Assembly (NCBI GenBank): GCA_021792815.1
Contig: JAJYTX010000086.1
Span: forward strand, 1-8,936
DNA from: Pseudomonadota bacterium
Lineage (GTDB): Bacteria; Pseudomonadota; Gammaproteobacteria; Steroidobacterales; Steroidobacteraceae
Direction of reading: 5' to 3'
DNA length: 8,936 bases
Part shown: one piece after another, positions 3,401 to 8,936 of the stretch
Numbering within the stretch: the stretch's first letter is position 1
Layout of the letters: each line of letters begins with the position of its first letter
Program-made: the position numbers and the translations under genes
Notes under the pieces: generated by a model
What the model was told of the DNA's origin: nothing
Database searches by the model: none
The model's input: only the letters and a program-made list of their open reading frames with translations

Positions 3401-3899
3401 CCCGAAGGTCTGGCAGGACTACGCCGCCGAGCGGACGCAGTACGGCGACGTGAGCATTCTGCCGACCCCGGTATTTTTCTACGGCATGGAGCCGGGCCAG
3501 GAAATCAGCATCGATCTGGAGCGGGGGAAAACGCTGTTCGTGCGCTACGTCGCCTGCAGCGAGCCCCACGACGATGGCACGCGCACCGTGTTCCTCGAGC
3601 TCAACGGCCACCCGCGTGCGCTGCGCGTGCCCGACCGCAGCCAGGCGCCCAGGCGTCCGCCCCAGCGCAAGGCCGAGGCGGGTAACCCGCGCCAGGTGGG
3701 CGCGCCCATGCCGGGTACCATCGCCACCATCGCAGTGAGTGTGGGGCGCAGAGTCGCCCGTGGCGACGTGCTCGCCACGCTGGAAGCGATGAAGATGGAG
3801 ACCCAGGTGCGCGCCGAGATCGACGGCGAAGTGGTGGAAGTGCCGGTCACTCCGGGCCAACAGGTCGATCCGAAGGATCTTCTGGTGGTGCTGCGCTGA
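441..3899 (+). CDS. pyc: Pyruvate carboxylase, single-chain biotin enzyme
   Basis: A complete 1152-residue pyruvate carboxylase, the usual length for the one-chain form. It carboxylates pyruvate to oxaloacetate using ATP and bicarbonate, refilling the TCA cycle. Domains in order: biotin carboxylase (about 8-470) with ILVANRGEIAIRV, the ATP-grasp glycine loop KASWGGGGRGMR (166-177), RRNQK (241-245) and EVNPRIQVEHTVTE (297-310, catalytic Arg301); carboxyltransferase (about 540-810) with TDTTMRDAHQSLLATR, metal ligands Asp548, Lys717 (in GIKDMAG), His746 and His748, and ANAVGYTNYPDNV; the PYC-specific domain with VTPTSKVVGDMA (Thr882); and a C-terminal biotinyl domain with EAMKMET, biotinylated Lys1118. 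No key residue is missing. The wording (DTSGIAAASVLAA, TSQPNLGSIVEAL) is very like the Rhizobium enzyme. The start is GTG 441; ATG 453, four codons inside, is an alternative and neither has a strong Shine-Dalgarno. The last 53 bp overlap the convergent membrane-protein gene. Confidence 0.97.
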   Translation: MNKAMLQKIRSILVANRGEIAIRVMRAASELGLRTVAVYSQEDRFSLHRTKADEAYLVGQGKGPVEAYLDIEGILRIAREARVDAIHPGYGFLSENPEFAAGCARAGIRFIGPEPETMRTLGNKVIARELAAQVGVPVMPATAPLPEGIEDCQRLAGQIGYPVMLKASWGGGGRGMRIVQSDEQLGQLLPVARREAKAAFGNDEVYLEKLVRHARHVEVQILGDAHGGLVHLYERDCTVQRRNQKVVERAPAVFLTEAQRAAICGAALAIGRAARYRNAGTVEFLQDADSGKFYFIEVNPRIQVEHTVTECATGIDLVKAQIRIAAGARLGTADSGVPPQEQIRIQAHALQCRVTTEDPENDFIPDYGKISAYRSPAGFGIRLDAGTAYTGAIITRSYDSLLVKVTSWASTPEETIARMHRALWEFRIRGVVTNLRFLDQVITHARFARGEYTTRFIDETPELFRWPRKRDRATRILTYIAETIVNGNPETRGRPRPARIESARLPPAVLGDPPPGTRQTLEELGPERFAQWMLRQERVLLTDTTMRDAHQSLLATRVRTIDMTAIAPYYASLAPELFSVECWGGATFDVAMRFLREDPWQRLSALRERLPNVLLQMLLRSANAVGYTNYPDNVVRFFVRRAAERGIDLFRIFDSLNWVENMRVAIDAVLEAGKLCEAAICYTGNLSDPREKKYTLEYYLKLARELKAAGTHVLGIKDMAGLCRPRAAYSLVKALKEEIGLPVHFHTHDTSGIAAASVLAAIDAGVDAIDGAIDAMSGLTSQPNLGSIVEALRHGARDPGVDPGKLRMLSSYWEQVRRLYAAFESDLRSGASEVYVHGMPGGQYTNLREQARSLGIDTAHWPQVAQAYADVNLMFGDIVKVTPTSKVVGDMALLMVTSGLTAQQVLDPKVDVAFPESVVQLFHGDLGQPCDGFPQALQRKVLKGGAPLASRPGATLPAVDLEAVRATIQEQVPRPVTDDDLASYLMYPKVWQDYAAERTQYGDVSILPTPVFFYGMEPGQEISIDLERGKTLFVRYVACSEPHDDGTRTVFLELNGHPRALRVPDRSQAPRRPPQRKAEAGNPRQVGAPMPGTIATIAVSVGRRVARGDVLATLEAMKMETQVRAEIDGEVVEVPVTPGQQVDPKDLLVVLR

Positions 3900-4872
3900 C
3901 GGCCGCGCCGGCGAACGCCCGGCGGCTCTCGATCAGCTGCCAGATGCCCAGGCCGGGTATGCCGGTGACCCATTCACGTGCGCGGCGAATCAGCGAGCAC
4001 GCGACGGCCGGCGCGGCCGCAATTCCGAGCAGCGCGCACACCAGCACGTAGCCGGCTTCCTGCACGCCGAGCGCGGCCGGAACCGCGAAGCCGAAGGTTC
4101 GCAGGCCGCAGAACAGGCTGTCGATGATGAGCGCGCCGGTCACCGTGACCGCGACCCCCATCAGATGAAAAATGATCCAGGTTTCCAGTGCGCCGAGCAT
4201 CCAGGCGAGGGTGTGCGTGGCGAAGGCGGCCGTCGTCCGGCGATCCGGTGCGGAGACCTGCCGCAGGGCTTGTCCGATGTCGGGTCCGATGTCGGGTCCG
4301 ATCCGAACCGCGGGCCAGCGCCGGGAAATCAGCCGCGCTGCGCCTTCCAGCATCGACAGCAGACGCTGTCGGTAGACAATCACTGCGAGCGCCAGGACAC
4401 CCGCCGGCAGCACCGCGGAGGTCGCCAGCCGCAGCGACGCCGCGTGGTGCCCGATGAGCAGCAGGATCGCGCCGGCCAGCACATAGGGCAGCTTGGCGAG
4501 CTGCTCGACGATGACATCCACGAGCATGGAGCTCATCGCCGGCAGGCCGCTCAGTCCCGCGAGGCTCAGCGCGCGTACGCCGGCCACGATTCCGCCCAGC
4601 TGGGAAAACGGCAGCACCTCCGCCGTCGCTTCACGCACATACCGGGCCCAGATGAATTTCCACGGCGAGGCGCCGCTCTGCCTGTTGCCGATGAACGACC
4701 AGGCGGATCCTGTCAGCGCAATCACCGGCAGATGGATCAGCGCGACGATCACCAGACCGGCGAGACCGACTCTCTCGGCGGCCTGCGCCACTGCGCCGAC
4801 TCCCGCGTACGCCACCGCCGCAACCAGCCCCACGGCGCCGAGCACGGCCGCGAGGAGCTTGGCGCGGCTCAT
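3847..4872 (-). CDS. HpnL-like / lysylphosphatidylglycerol synthase TM-domain (UPF0104-type) integral membrane protein
   Basis: A 341-residue polytopic inner-membrane protein. Hydrophobic segments are visible near residues 5-25, 36-57, 115-140, 149-168, 216-236, 240-262 and 270-292. REATAEVLPFSQLGGIVAGV (80-99) and GFAVPAALGVQEAG (261-274) resemble HpnL and the transmembrane flippase-like part of MprF (the LPG_synthase_TM family). Members lack the soluble aminoacyl-transferase domain, as here, and are thought to move or help modify lipids; HpnL is tied to hopanoid lipids in some bacteria. No hopanoid gene is in this window, so that role is not implied. The ATG (4870-4872) overlaps the sulfotransferase stop as ATGA, indicating translational coupling. 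Residues 192-199 are a duplicated GPDI from a 12-bp tandem repeat. The charged, proline-rich C-terminal tail (about 318-341) is encoded partly antisense to the end of pyc. The family call is firm; the substrate is unknown. Confidence 0.86.
   Translation of the reverse strand: MSRAKLLAAVLGAVGLVAAVAYAGVGAVAQAAERVGLAGLVIVALIHLPVIALTGSAWSFIGNRQSGASPWKFIWARYVREATAEVLPFSQLGGIVAGVRALSLAGLSGLPAMSSMLVDVIVEQLAKLPYVLAGAILLLIGHHAASLRLATSAVLPAGVLALAVIVYRQRLLSMLEGAARLISRRWPAVRIGPDIGPDIGQALRQVSAPDRRTTAAFATHTLAWMLGALETWIIFHLMGVAVTVTGALIIDSLFCGLRTFGFAVPAALGVQEAGYVLVCALLGIAAAPAVACSLIRRAREWVTGIPGLGIWQLIESRRAFAGAAVSAAPPEDPSDRPVGPE
4273..4302. repeat. 12-bp tandem repeat, 2.5 copies, in frame
   Basis: The unit TCCGATGTCGGG occurs twice exactly (4273-4284 and 4285-4296), followed by a six-base partial copy. 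On the minus strand it encodes GPDIGPDIG in the cytoplasmic-looking loop of the HpnL-like protein. The length is a multiple of three, so gain or loss of units keeps the frame. Confidence 0.9.
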
Positions 4873-6101
4873 GCCGGGCTCGTCGATAACGCGCTTTCCG
4901 GGGTCGAGCGGTTGCGCTCGGGGCGGATATCGAACACTTCCATATATCGCGCAAAGCGTTCGCGCAGCCGCGGGGCATCGAGACCGAACGCTTCGAGGCT
5001 GTAGTGATGCACCGGGTAGCCGCCGCGCGGCCTCGTGCGCAGATACTCCGCCACCCGGGTCTCGGCCTGCTCGCTCAACGTCATTCCGCAGTGACGGTAC
5101 AGCCGCTCCAGCGTTTCCATGGGGGCGCCCACGACGTCGTGATAGTACAGGTGCAGGATGTTGCCGCCCTGCGAATGGGCGCTCACGATCCGCTCGGCGC
5201 CCTCCGCCCAGCGGTCGCTCACCTCATGCCCAATCTCCGTGCGGGCGACGCGCAGGGAAAACGGGCGCCTGAGGACCTCGGTGAGCCTGGCCACCGATGC
5301 GAGAACGCGCAACGGATCGCGGTGCAACATGATGACGTGCGCATCGGGATAGGCCGCCCGAAGCGCATCGAGGGCAAAAACGTGATCGGGACACTTCAAT
5401 ACCCAGCGCCTGCCCAGCGGCAGCTGCGCATCGAGGTGCTGGAGAAAACGCCGGTGAAAGATGTACGCGATATGGTGTCCGTGCCGGTCGATCCAGTCGC
5501 GATACGAGGGGATGCGGTACATGGTATCGAACCGCAGGCTCTGAAAGACCTGTGCGGTGATGTCGGTGCATTCCTGCGGAGCGTTGGCCTGCAGCGGGTG
5601 CAGGGTGGCGAGCTCGGGCGAGAGCAGCCGCAACAGCGCAAACTGGCGCTCGACGCGCGCCCGGCGCCGCTCGCCCGATGAAAGCAGGCGGCCTCTCGGA
5701 TAAGGGTAGATGAGCTGCCAGCTGCGGGGCACCGCGATGGCCGGATCGAGCGACAGCAGCGAGTGCAGGAAGGTCGAGCCGCTGCGCGGCAGGCCGGTGA
5801 TGAAGATCGGGCGGGTCAGGGGACGGCGGACGATGCCCGGATCGGCCTCCTCGGCGATATCGAGCCGCAGCAGATTGTCGAGACAGCGCAGGGCGTCGAA
5901 CCGGGCCGCGAGGTGGCCGAAGACGCTGAGCTGTGCTTCCCCGTCCAGGGCATGCAGGAGATGGCGCAGAGCCGCGGTGAACGTCCAGTCGGAGAAATCC
6001 TGGCGTCCGCCGCGGCGCAGTGACGTCGCGATGAGCGCGTCGGCGTCGAGCGGCGCGATGCGCTCGAAAGCTCGGGACATCTGCCGCTGAAAGAATGCCA
6101 T
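4869..6101 (-). CDS. PAPS-dependent sulfotransferase family protein
   Basis: A 410-residue sulfotransferase of the broad bacterial Sulfotransfer_3-like group. These enzymes move a sulfo group from PAPS to a hydroxyl or amino acceptor. The 5'-phosphosulfate loop is FITGLPRSGSTFLHSLL (100-116), and the 3'-phosphate-binding segment is VIMLHRDPLRVLASVARL (256-273), with the Arg-Asp-Pro and the downstream Ser typical of the family. LKCPDHVFALDAL (235-247) and QECTDIT (176-182) are also family-like. There is no signal peptide or membrane span, so it should be cytoplasmic. The first 95 residues are a helical domain seen in the longer members. The start is ATG 6099-6101, nine bases after AGAGGA on the minus strand; an internal Met8 is a weaker alternative. 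Its stop overlaps the start of the membrane-protein gene. The acceptor cannot be read from the sequence; a lipid or other envelope molecule is inferred from that neighbour. Confidence 0.92.
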   Translation of the reverse strand: MAFFQRQMSRAFERIAPLDADALIATSLRRGGRQDFSDWTFTAALRHLLHALDGEAQLSVFGHLAARFDALRCLDNLLRLDIAEEADPGIVRRPLTRPIFITGLPRSGSTFLHSLLSLDPAIAVPRSWQLIYPYPRGRLLSSGERRRARVERQFALLRLLSPELATLHPLQANAPQECTDITAQVFQSLRFDTMYRIPSYRDWIDRHGHHIAYIFHRRFLQHLDAQLPLGRRWVLKCPDHVFALDALRAAYPDAHVIMLHRDPLRVLASVARLTEVLRRPFSLRVARTEIGHEVSDRWAEGAERIVSAHSQGGNILHLYYHDVVGAPMETLERLYRHCGMTLSEQAETRVAEYLRTRPRGGYPVHHYSLEAFGLDAPRLRERFARYMEVFDIRPERNRSTPESALSTSPA

Positions 6102-6233: not shown

Positions 6234-8165
6234 TTATCGATTGACCTTTGGCGCCGTGCTGCGCCCATTCGACACTCGAGCTAGACCGTGGACTAGGCTG
6301 GAGGCAGGCGAAACGGACGGTGCGCCCGGCGTGGTCGCGTCGAACCAACCACCCGTGAATTCAGCGCGGCGCAATCCGGCACGGACGTAGGGATTGCGCC
6401 GCATGATCCGCCAGATCAGCCCGCTTCGTTCGTTCTCGATCATCGCGATGATCGGCCCCTGATCGATGCCGACGAACTGATCGTCGACCCAGCCGCGTCC
6501 TGGCACGACATAGCCATCCCGGGCCAGCCGGGCGTGCGTGAAGCTCGGGTTGAAGGCGTCGAGGAAGCCGTAGCGGGTGTAGAGAATGTCTCCGTAGTCG
6601 CGCAAAAGCGCCTGCGTGGCCTGGATCACATGCCGCGGGGCGAACGGCAAAGACCCGAGCACCGCGGTCGGCGCCAATGTGCCATCGTCATCGCGCCGGT
6701 GGATAATGCCGCGTGCGTAATAGCCATAAAACTGCCGCATCCGGCCGTGAAAGGGGGCGCGGACATTGCCCGGCCCGTCACAGGCGGTGAGTCCCCAGAT
6801 GTCAGGGCCGTACCCCGCCCAGCCTTTGGGGTTGTCGATGGCGTACTGGCGCTGCGCGAGCGTGGCTCGGCGGCCGTTCACGAAGTAGGTCTCCCCGTGG
6901 GCCCGCATGAACGCGTCGGCGATGCCCCGCAGGTCGATCCACACCGCAGTGTACTGGGGGCCGAACTGCGGACCGAAAGCCAGTAGCGTCTGGCCATCGA
7001 GCTGGCGCCAGTCACGGCCGTCGGTCGCGGTCCACGCCGTCCAGGCGTTGTTGCGCAAAGGGTACGTCGGGGAGCCCAGACCGAGGATGTACAGGATCGA
7101 CGCTTCGTTATATCCGGCCCAGCGCGCCTTCGAGAATCCCTTGCGGGGGTACCAGGCCATGCTGACAAGCGGGTTCAGTCCCGGTGCGGCCCAGCCCCAA
7201 TTGACGCGCCGGTACAGCCGGTCCGCGGTCTGGCGTACCTGGGTTTCGGTCGGCGTGGGGTGGTCGAAGTAGCTTTCGGCGGTGAGCACACCGGCCATGA
7301 GCAGCGCGGTGTCAATGGTGGAGAGCTCGCTGTTGCGATACCTCAGGCCGCTGCGCATCCCGAGGAAGTGATAGAACAGTCCATGATACCCGGCGTAGCC
7401 CTTCGGCCCCGGCCCCTGCGGCCGGCTCAACAGGAACGCGAGGACCTTGAGCACGCGAGCAGCGGCGGCGTGCCGGGTGACATACCCCCGATCGGCACCG
7501 ATCACATCCGCCGTCAAGGCAAAACCGACCGCCGCGATGCTCGAGGGGCCGCGCGACGGCCAGCGATCCGGTGACAGCCCGGTGACCGGATCCGCGGTGT
7601 CCCAGAAGTAATCGAATGTCCGTCGCTCGATATCGCGCAGCATGCGTCGAGGATCGGCCGCGAGACTCTGCACGCAAGGCTGGGAGATCAGTGCGACCGG
7701 GGTCGGCGGCCAGGGCTGCCACGCCGACGCGTGCGCGCACGCGATCGACGCAATGGCGCCGGGCATGGCCGCGCGCTCCATCGCCAGATGGGTAAACGGA
7801 TCCCCGGTGTGCCAGAACTCATCGAGAGTCCGGCGGGCGATCTCCCGGTACCGGTCTCGGGAGCCGACCGGGAGGCGCCACACGTCATGCTGAGAGAACG
7901 GCGCGAGGTCTGGTGGCTGCGTTTGGGCGGATGATGCCTGCCCGCCGGCGATCAGGGCAATCGCCGTGAGCACGCCGGCCAGCCGCAGCCACCAACGGCC
8001 CGGCCGGGCGGTCAGTCGCACTCGGGCGGAGTGCGGTGCGGACGCTGCCGCCTGGAGCGTGTGGCCCTGCCAGGCCGCCCGTAATGCCGCCTCCTGCGCT
8101 TCGCCCTTCATGAGCGAGAAGCCGTTCATCACGCGCGATACGGTCGCGGTGGGGACTCCGGTCAA
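6234..8165 (-). CDS. Glucoamylase-like (PF10091 / GH144-like) exported glycoside hydrolase with an in-frame LacI-type N-terminal extension
   Basis: Residues are numbered from the TTG at 8163-8165, the outermost ordinary start codon (643 codons). Residues 58-80 are a hydrophobic segment ending ASSA-Q, a good signal-peptidase site, so the catalytic part should be periplasmic or secreted. An (alpha/alpha)-barrel-type domain follows: RRTFDYFWDTADPVTGL (181-197), GYHGLFYHFL (259-268), SELSTIDTALLMAGVL (279-294), GYNEASILYILGLGSPTYP (351-369), YGPDIWGLTACDGPG (452-466), DDDGTLAPTAVLGSLPF (492-508), YGFLDAFNPS (532-541) and IDQGPIIAMIENERSGLIW (567-585). These are the hallmarks of the glycoamylase-like family, which includes endo-beta-1,2-glucanases (GH144), so the substrate is probably a beta-glucan, not proven. 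A GTG at 8019-8021 would give a normal 32-residue signal peptide and may be the true start. Residues 107-149 are a diverged copy of 177-220. The region before residue 45 is a LacI helix-turn-helix (separate entry). Confidence 0.85.
   Translation of the reverse strand: MTGVPTATVSRVMNGFSLMKGEAQEAALRAAWQGHTLQAAASAPHSARVRLTARPGRWWLRLAGVLTAIALIAGGQASSAQTQPPDLAPFSQHDVWRLPVGSRDRYREIARRTLDEFWHTGDPFTHLAMERAAMPGAIASIACAHASAWQPWPPTPVALISQPCVQSLAADPRRMLRDIERRTFDYFWDTADPVTGLSPDRWPSRGPSSIAAVGFALTADVIGADRGYVTRHAAAARVLKVLAFLLSRPQGPGPKGYAGYHGLFYHFLGMRSGLRYRNSELSTIDTALLMAGVLTAESYFDHPTPTETQVRQTADRLYRRVNWGWAAPGLNPLVSMAWYPRKGFSKARWAGYNEASILYILGLGSPTYPLRNNAWTAWTATDGRDWRQLDGQTLLAFGPQFGPQYTAVWIDLRGIADAFMRAHGETYFVNGRRATLAQRQYAIDNPKGWAGYGPDIWGLTACDGPGNVRAPFHGRMRQFYGYYARGIIHRRDDDGTLAPTAVLGSLPFAPRHVIQATQALLRDYGDILYTRYGFLDAFNPSFTHARLARDGYVVPGRGWVDDQFVGIDQGPIIAMIENERSGLIWRIMRRNPYVRAGLRRAEFTGGWFDATTPGAPSVSPASSLVHGLARVSNGRSTAPKVNR
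7506..7847 (-). repeat. Diverged internal protein repeat in the glucoamylase-like gene
   Basis: Copy 1 (residues 107-149, about 7847-7719) and copy 2 (177-220, about 7637-7506) are 70 codons apart. REIARRTLDEFWHTGDP aligns without gaps to RDIERRTFDYFWDTADP, and 14 of the first 25 residues are identical (107-131 against 177-201). The likeness continues as AIASIACAHASAW against SSIAAVGFALTAD after a one-residue gap. The DNA is well diverged, so this is an old duplication. Copy 2 looks like the normal family N-terminus; copy 1 is the extra. Confidence 0.7.
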
Positions 8166-8222
8166 AGTCGTGACATCTCGAAGATCAACGGGGCAAGGAT
8201 GCAGTGAGAATACCGCCGCCGT
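8022..8222 (-). pseudogene. LacI-family helix-turn-helix remnant or in-frame fusion domain
   Basis: The frame of the glucoamylase-like gene stays open upstream to a TAG at 8223-8225. It encodes VDLRDVTTLTGVPTATV followed by SRVMNG and GEAQEAALRAAWQ, which align along the whole LacI-type DNA-binding domain (consensus pattern: DVA-LAGVS-ATVSRVLNG, then the TRERV-AA helix). After about 45 residues the LacI hinge and sugar-binding domain are missing, and the frame runs into the signal peptide of the hydrolase. No ATG, GTG or TTG lies before the helix-turn-helix in this frame. A CTG at 8202-8204 would put the domain at the usual distance from the N-terminus but has no Shine-Dalgarno. I read it as the leftover of a regulator gene joined to its neighbour by deletion; a functional fusion cannot be excluded. 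Confidence 0.65.
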
Positions 8223-8225
8223 CTA

Positions 8226-8388
8226 GAGGGCATTGGCCGGTACCCGAGGGGATCTCCCGTCCATCCGAGCCTCATCCCACGGTTGCCGCGTACAGGCTGC
8301 CGCTCCCAGTCGAAGAACGGTCGGCGTCTGCACGGCCTGTCGGGAACGTCCGGTGCGGGAGAGCGTGTCCAACGTCTCGCGTCAGCGC
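8226..8388. other. Non-coding gap between the FAH-family gene and the LacI-like remnant
   Basis: About 160 bp with no protein I recognise in any frame. I see no convincing terminator hairpin with a T-run, no good -35/-10 pair and no clear LacI-type palindromic operator with a central CG. It may hold the promoter of the downstream gene or be residue of the deleted regulator region. Confidence 0.5.
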
Positions 8389-8936
8389 TCAGATTCGCCG
8401 CCACGCCACGACGCGCTGGCGCTGCTCGCCGAGCTTTTCGATACCGAGGCGCAACGTGTCGCCCGGAGCCAGATAGAGCGGTTCAGGCTTGCGGCCCATG
8501 CCGACACCGGGAGGGGTTCCGGTCGTGATGATGTCTCCCGGCTCGAGCGTCATGAAACGGCTGAGATAGCTCACGATCGCGGCAACGGGGAAGATCATCG
8601 CACGGGTGTTGCCGGTCTGCATGCGCTGGCCGTTGACGTCCAGCCACAGGTTCAGGTTCTGCACGTCGCCGACCTCATCGCGTGTGACCAGCCACGGACC
8701 GACCGGCCCGAACGTGTCGCATCCCTTGCCTTTGTCCCACGTGCCACCGCGCTCGATCTGGAATTCACGCTCTGAAAGATCGTTCACCACGACATAACCG
8801 GCAACGTATTTCAGCGCGTCGCGCTCCTCGACGTAGCGCGCAACGGTGCCGATGACGACACCGAGCTCTACCTCCCAGTCGGCTTTCTTCGAGCCCTTCG
8901 GCAACATGATCTCGTCGTTGGGCCCGTGCAGACAGC
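8389..8936 (-). CDS. Fumarylacetoacetate hydrolase (FAH) family protein, C-terminal part
   Basis: The C-terminal 182 codons of an FAH-family enzyme; the start lies beyond the right edge (whole proteins are about 280 residues). The family hydrolyses, decarboxylates or isomerises acyl-pyruvate-type and related keto acids with a divalent metal. Seen directly: ADWEVELGVVIG with its two metal-ligand Glu residues, GYVVVNDLSEREFQIERGG (with the metal-ligand Asp), GTWDKGKGCDTFGPVGPWLV, SYLSRFMTLEPGDIITTGTP, PGVGMG and LRLGIEKLGEQRQ. This wording is that of the widespread proteobacterial 2-hydroxyhepta-2,4-diene-1,7-dioate isomerase/ureidoglycolate-lyase-annotated subgroup, whose true substrates are mostly unknown; the reaction here cannot be settled. 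No active-site residue is missing in the visible part. The stop is TGA at 8389-8391. It is on the same strand as the glucoamylase-like gene but separated by a long gap, so a common operon is not evident. Confidence 0.94.
   Translation of the reverse strand, partial: CLHGPNDEIMLPKGSKKADWEVELGVVIGTVARYVEERDALKYVAGYVVVNDLSEREFQIERGGTWDKGKGCDTFGPVGPWLVTRDEVGDVQNLNLWLDVNGQRMQTGNTRAMIFPVAAIVSYLSRFMTLEPGDIITTGTPPGVGMGRKPEPLYLAPGDTLRLGIEKLGEQRQRVVAWRRI

Follow-up and report, generated by a model that had tools for sequence, protein, structure and literature searches.

A lacI gene fossil at the start of an exported GH144-like glucanase gene, with a 105-nt block that appears to be kept as nucleotides

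We propose that the LacI-like beginning of a glycoside hydrolase frame in the window (by which we mean the whole stretch of 8,936 nucleotides analysed) is a decayed lacI fossil fused to the gene of an exported GH144 enzyme, and that one block of the fossil is kept as nucleotides, likeliest as the leader or translation-start region of the enzyme gene. Judging from sequence comparison, we would give this reading a probability of roughly two in three. The evidence that carries it comes from six DNA sequences (the window and the loci L001, L002, L003, L074 and L075, three being close relatives), in which the DNA of the block changes slowly while its surroundings drift, without the pattern of changes expected of a coding sequence.

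The frame and its predicted enzyme

The minus-strand frame 6237-8222 is open, and the LacI-like stretch, the hydrophobic segment and the PF10091 domain all lie in it; the unbroken frame described in the sequence-only reading is indeed there. Its only Pfam domains are PF10091 and a weak LacI helix-turn-helix (HTH) match, the C-terminal sugar-binding core domain of LacI/GalR being absent. The hydrophobic segment is followed by an ASSA/Q-like cleavage site; both the signal peptide and this site were read by eye from the sequence. Coordinates are collected in Table 1.

Table 1. Features of the window discussed in the text
Feature	Position	Strand	Basis
GH144-like glucanase gene from TTG 8165, 643 aa including the stop	6234..8165	-	gene call; public cluster P0001 has the identical 643 aa
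Old lacI start codon TTG, shifted by +1 from the frame	8194..8196	-	alignment to four intact lacI genes, distances
Conserved 105-nt block, lacI HTH codons apparently kept as nucleotides	8076..8180	-	comparison of six sequences
TTG, likeliest start (inferred)	8163..8165	-	only in-frame start codon common to all six DNA sequences
Possible RNA hairpin, suggestive only	8068..8146	-	folding
Remaining lacI-derived stretch (hinge region), poorly conserved	8022..8075	-	alignment
Signal peptide, predicted; GTG 8021 is an alternative start; cleavage ASSA/Q	7926..8021	-	sequence, by eye
GH144 catalytic domain, (alpha/alpha)6 barrel	6300..7706	-	residues 154-622 aligned to 8xul, Pfam, model, Foldseek
Glu codon aligned with catalytic E239 of XcSGL	7104..7106	-	8xul alignment counted by eye; PMC12102758

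The hydrolase had been recognized from the letters as GH144-like, and several lines agree with this. The PF10091 'Glycoamylase' domain is matched with E 1.3e-75 (254.1 bits against a cut-off of 27), among solved structures the closest in sequence is 8xul (the GH144 enzyme XcSGL, XCC2207; E 1.2e-155), and this entry also comes first when Foldseek is run on the AlphaFold2 model (mean pLDDT 64). According to PMC12102758, E239, F286 and Y367 (XcSGL numbering) are the clan-defining residues, E239 being catalytic; in the frame the aligned positions are occupied by Glu, Phe and Tyr (counted by eye, offset 14), and the Gln at the E239 place in the 8xul chain we read as the E239Q mutant of that paper. 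Judged by its family, the catalytic part is GH144-like and endo-beta-1,2-glucanase-like. It resembles the GH144 endo-beta-1,2-glucanases XcSGL (XCC2207/8XUL) and CpSGL (5GZH/5GZK; PMC12102758) in the catalytic domain, of which 469 residues are aligned; unlike them, the window gene has a lacI-derived leader and extra N-terminal residues, and its activity is a prediction. In L001, L002 and L003 the signal peptide is followed by Pro/Gln/Ser-rich linkers of differing lengths, absent in the window, L074 and L075.

As for the neighbours, positions 8389-8936 (minus strand), upstream of the glucanase gene, hold the C-terminal part of an FAA-hydrolase-family gene that is cut by the window end; its best NCBIfam match is 2,4-didehydro-3-deoxy-L-rhamnonate hydrolase NF053535, at 332 bits against a cut-off of 500 for this partial gene. 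L001-L003 have at this place what we take to be a TonB-receptor-like gene instead. After the glucanase gene, at 3847-6101 (minus strand), come a sulfotransferase (PF13469) and an HpnL-like membrane protein (TIGR03476), overlapping by 4 nt; this overlap and the gene order suggest one operon of glucanase, sulfotransferase and HpnL-like protein. The HpnL and pyc ends overlap convergently at 3847-3899.

Origin of the LacI-like stretch and decay of the DNA-binding protein

The N-terminal 74 amino acids match Pfam LacI PF00356 with E 2.5e-5 over profile positions 2-32 of 46, and the window scores 24.4-24.8 bits, under the curated cut-off of 27 bits. In a whole-frame search of 200 family genomes, intact LacI-type genes match frame residues 6-62 with up to 59% identity. 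Further, an alignment with four intact lacI genes shows all six remnants tracking lacI from its start codon as far as about codon 65, that is, the likeness extends beyond the HTH and takes in the DNA-binding domain and the hinge. On this comparison we regard the resemblance as true homology and not chance. DNA identity of the block to the intact lacI gene L035 is 62-74% across the remnants (74% for the window), against 48-54% to L038, another lacI type, which means that the block resembles the L035/L039/L029 type. The fossil is homologous to these LacI/GalR regulators in HTH and hinge; unlike them, it has no sugar-binding core, its start is broken, its HTH is decayed and it appears to be kept as nucleotides.

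The sequence-only reading had offered, as its cautious option, a deletion that joined lacI to the hydrolase gene, and as an origin this option holds, given intact lacI genes in relatives and the situation in genome G003. There an intact lacI of the type resembling the block and a GH144 gene (L004) lie on one contig and strand, at 31016 and 37049, about 6 kb apart, and the GH144 gene has its own ATG and signal peptide; the genes between them are presumably TonB-receptor-like and halogenase-like. A separate intact lacI together with a hydrolase that has its own start had been named beforehand as the observation that would refute a real fusion, and G003 provides it.

The L001 fossil, with an aldehyde-dehydrogenase-like gene on one side and MFS-like and pyc genes on the other, lies where an intact lacI stands in G006, but one of the other lacI type. 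Its MFS-like and pyc flanks are 75-79% identical to the flanks of the intact lacI/ABC-transporter cluster of G006, and the TonB receptors of the L001 and G006 regions have no match to each other at E 1e-10. The joining event has support, its precise route does not. The intact cluster in G006 (L085/L148) and G005 (L086/L149) we take to consist of lacI, a binding protein, two permeases, an ATPase and a GH39-like gene, sitting presumably between a TonB-receptor/halogenase-like pair and MFS-pyc. In our opinion the lacI origin of the fossil is well supported by comparison; the deletion or recombination event, and the number of origins, we infer.

Regarding that number, 23 loci were obtained by scanning genome contigs, and three of them (L001, L002 and L003) match from the first residue; genome searches added G044 (L074) and G130 (L075). 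At the DNA level (search with window 8060-8205) the stretch is found at E < 1e-25 in 5 of 217 family genomes, in none of which a second strong copy was seen; 36 further genomes gave weak matches only, up to E 0.01, some of them inside intact lacI genes. Of 120 candidates in a protein search with N-terminal residues 1-72, one was hit, the cluster of the window itself. Genome G172 carries the enzyme on a contig that ends before the remnant region, and P0005, whose enzyme domain is identical to that of G172, has the remnant. In the enzyme tree the nine carriers, a count that leaves out P0006, P0007 and G172 (L047), whose N-terminus is unseen, fall into two clusters: the window, L001-L003 and P0004 in one, and P0003, P0005, L074 and L075 in the other. 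The deep forks are weak and 0 of 200 bootstraps unite the two clusters, so that a single origin is not shown by the tree. A single origin is nevertheless suggested, the main sign being one 3-nt deletion common to all six remnants relative to the four intact lacI genes.

The DNA-binding domain had been called whole, which it is not: the last third of the Pfam domain is unmatched, and helix 1 of the window lies 5' of TTG 8165 (codon 6 of the block), the first ATG, GTG or TTG in frame. Only L002 and L003 still have the old lacI TTG start in frame; in the window and L075 it is shifted by +1, in L074 by +2, and in L001 it has become TTC, which means that the HTH start is broken or frameshifted in four of the six sequences. 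Pfam LacI scores are 24.8 bits for the window, 14.6 for L001, 15.8 for L002 and 16.1 for L003, with no match in L074 and L075, as against 66.6, 65.4 and 67.4 bits for three intact genes. In the recognition helix, L001-L003 have Asp in place of Val, and in the AlphaFold2 model (20-sequence alignment) residues 1-151 have pLDDT < 50 and form no HTH. The comparison shows a DNA-binding protein function that has decayed, with apparently relaxed constraint at the protein level.

Conservation of the block as nucleotide sequence

In the block, 8180-8076, 71 of 105 columns are invariant across the six sequences, against 26% of 218 four-fold sites of the enzyme (Fisher p 7e-13), and changes per site amount to 0.41 against 1.17. 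DNA on both sides drifts: there are 1.12 changes per site in the 33 columns found 31-80 columns upstream of the block and 1.04 in the 45-column tail downstream. The 30 columns that adjoin the block upstream are intermediate, at 0.82, and the 5' edge of the block is therefore not sharp. Within the block the 15 pairs range from 77 to 94% identity, and the five that include the window from 81 to 89%; for codons 36-52, on the hinge side, the five relatives have 47-61% identity with the window.

The changes themselves do not look like those of a protein-coding sequence. They number 8, 20 and 15 by codon position in the block, with no significant difference from a uniform distribution (p 0.08), and this pattern differs (p 1e-8) from the 21, 14 and 64% of the enzyme. 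Pooled over 11 pairs, pN/pS of the block in the LacI frame is 0.93; in the other five frames it ranges from 0.57 to 2.06, and the values of single pairs lie anywhere between 0.35 and 3.39. For the three close pairs among L001-L003 they are 0.35-0.60, from 3-4 synonymous and 3-5 nonsynonymous changes, which leaves room for some weak protein constraint in this group. The lowest of the six frames, +2 with its 0.57, was considered as an overlapping gene and rejected: the window has a stop just upstream and no ATG, GTG or TTG inside it.

It is instructive to set synonymous change in the block beside that in the first 35 or so codons of neighbouring genes. Block pS is 0.12 for window-L001, 0.23 for window-L002 and 0.06 for window-L074. 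The beginning of the sulfotransferase gene gives 0.39 (window and L001) and 0.30 (window and L002), that of HpnL 0.53 and 0.54 for the same pairs, and that of pyc 0.31 (window and L074). No 35-codon window of sulfotransferase or HpnL (minimum 0.20 each) is as low as the window-L001 block, and none of pyc (minimum 0.14) as low as the window-L074 block, while the window-L002 block is not under the minima of sulfotransferase and HpnL (0.21 and 0.23). In the close pair L001-L002 the block has pS 0.11, and the beginnings of HpnL (0.03) and sulfotransferase (0.10) change no faster. Taken together, a block that is conserved while its surroundings drift, and that has no coding pattern, argues for a fossil kept mainly as DNA or RNA; for these six sequences the comparison shows a 105-nt part of it held as nucleotide sequence.

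One may object that the fossil is a functionless deletion scar, in which the block is conserved by chance or through recent recombination among species. This shares the origin evidence with our reading and would sit well with the promoter, Rfam family and covariation that were sought and not found (see below). We nevertheless consider it improbable, because four-fold sites, the more distant upstream DNA and the tail all change about three times as fast as the block; the enzyme encoded by the same molecule has diverged normally, with pS 0.42-0.49 in the 11 pairs formed across three groups (L001-L003, the window, L074-L075); and no second strong copy was seen in a genome as a donor for conversion. 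The single strong copy per carrier genome likewise disposes of a repeated regulatory element.

The bolder option of the sequence-only reading was a functional one-component membrane regulator, with the LacI HTH in the cytoplasm, one transmembrane segment and a periplasmic GH144 sensor or enzyme, in the manner of ToxR and CadC. There is indeed one open frame, and the order LacI-like stretch, hydrophobic segment, GH144 domain recurs in L001, L002, L003, L074 and L075 and in the proteins P0003 and P0005; the old TTG start is still in frame in L002 and L003, and the low pN/pS of the close pairs points the same way. Recurrence in several species had been proposed as support for a real fusion and is indeed seen, but the conserved part looks like nucleotides and not like protein. 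Against a regulator stand the HTH start (broken or shifted in four of six), Pfam LacI absent in two of six, the change of Val to Asp in the recognition helix of L001-L003, the pooled pN/pS of 0.93, the AlphaFold2 model without an HTH, helix 1 outside the part that is likely translated, and a hydrophobic segment that looks, by eye, like a cleavable signal peptide. We ruled this candidate out on the grounds of the start codon, the loss of Pfam score, the pN/pS value and the model of the N-terminus, and we would grant it only a very slight probability. With transmembrane transcription regulators such as ToxR and CadC (PMC10269533) the frame shares a DNA-binding-like stretch, a hydrophobic segment and an exported domain; unlike theirs, its HTH is not maintained and its hydrophobic segment reads as a cleavable signal peptide. 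A passage search of the main text of PMC10269533 for the terms LacI and glycos gave no occurrence. Among the literature matches listed, in a search whose scope left out most subscription journals, there was no case of a LacI-glycosidase fusion, a membrane LacI regulator or a leader made of a lacI remnant.

Translation start and candidate control signals

Probably translation begins at TTG 8165, inside the block, since this is the only start codon in frame in all six DNA sequences. For P0001 the gene call begins at TTG 8165, and those for P0002 and P0005 begin at the corresponding position; P0003 and P0004 have other called starts, and the codons around TTG 8165 seem to be missing from P0003. 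No good Shine-Dalgarno-like site was seen by eye before TTG 8165. L074 and L075 have no ATG, GTG or TTG between codon 22 and the signal-peptide core, and have in-frame ATGs also further upstream.

The alternative is a start at GTG 8021 or its equivalents, with the whole fossil as an untranslated leader or as a promoter or operator, perhaps with a dyad bound by a protein. In the window this GTG, at codon 54, would give a compact signal peptide; in L001 and L002 a GTG follows nine codons later, and L003 has an ATG at 57. Two dyads, GTCA-N6-TGAC and CGCGA-N5-TCGCG, noticed by eye and post hoc, have mostly conserved arms and variable spacers, with one arm base differing in L001 and one in L075. 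We consider such a start unlikely, although it deserves to be taken seriously: L074 and L075 have no ATG, GTG or TTG there, the gene calls for P0001, P0002 and P0005 (not P0003 or P0004) point to TTG 8165 or its match, and the gaps between block and signal peptide are multiples of three.

Searches for control signals were mostly negative. There is no sigma-70-type promoter or terminator in window 7950-8500 and no Rfam match above the gathering cut-off in window 7900-8500, where one unrelated sub-threshold match was obtained. Palindromes like TGTAAACGTTTACA or TGAAAACGCTTACA stand directly before three of the four aligned intact lacI genes (L035, L039 and L029; by eye) and were not seen by eye in the upstream DNA of the window. 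The palindromes upstream of these three genes, TGAAAACG(C/T)TTACA or TGTAAACGTTTACA, are possibly autoregulatory operators.

A hairpin at 8068-8146 is suggested and has partial support. The consensus fold has an energy z of -2.98 (300 column shuffles) with 96.1% of cells paired. For single sequences the hairpin energy z is -1.6 in the window, -6.0 in L001, -1.8 in L002 and -1.5 in L003; L074 (0.0) and L075 (+1.2) fold no better than shuffles. Pair-preserving changes, scored on single-sequence structures, give p 0.0035 for the window, 0.36 for L001, 0.026 for L002, 0.11 for L003, 0.05 for L074 and 0.12 for L075. Covariation shows no excess over shuffles, a double change occurring in 1 of 34 pairs, and among the intact lacI segments folded (9 of 11, by eye) the hairpin is not formed alike. 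The property under selection in the block may be RNA structure, a protein site or translation initiation.

The course of events that we favour is the following. A deletion or recombination in a sugar-utilisation cluster would have excised the body of a lacI gene and left its first 65 or so codons attached to the gene of a secreted GH144 beta-1,2-glucanase. The DNA-binding function then decayed, as the comparison shows, through loss or frameshift of the start and changes of HTH core residues, and the block would have become the leader and translation-initiation region of the glucanase gene. LacI-derived residues would be a dispensable extension before the signal peptide, removed together with it, while an RNA, possibly the hairpin, or a protein-binding site within the block would tune expression. 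On this view the gene would make an ordinary exported GH144 enzyme and no membrane regulator. It is tempting to go further and to speculate that codons of a LacI DNA-binding domain have turned into a cis-regulatory RNA or DNA element (hairpin or operator) that controls initiation of the beta-1,2-glucanase, the fossil having replaced the regulator protein; we offer this tentatively, as a possibility that falls somewhat short of an even chance.

There is a partial parallel in gene remnants exapted as bacterial regulatory RNA. PMC8687705 mentions the origin of an sRNA from a degenerate element and cites the review of Jose et al. 2019 for exaptation; in both cases a piece of a former gene is kept as non-protein sequence. 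Unlike those RNAs, the piece in the window stands in cis, joined to the 5' end of an enzyme gene, and is a candidate leader only. No case like the present one was found for exapted gene remnants in bacteria among the matches listed, most subscription journals lying outside the scope.

An apparent fusion of an HTH to an enzyme, which surveys of domain architecture could list as a new class of sensor, can thus be a gene fossil, and the nucleotides of such a fossil can be conserved for another reason than its protein. If the leader function is true, the lacI remnant would be a bacterial comparative example of a coding sequence becoming a control region.
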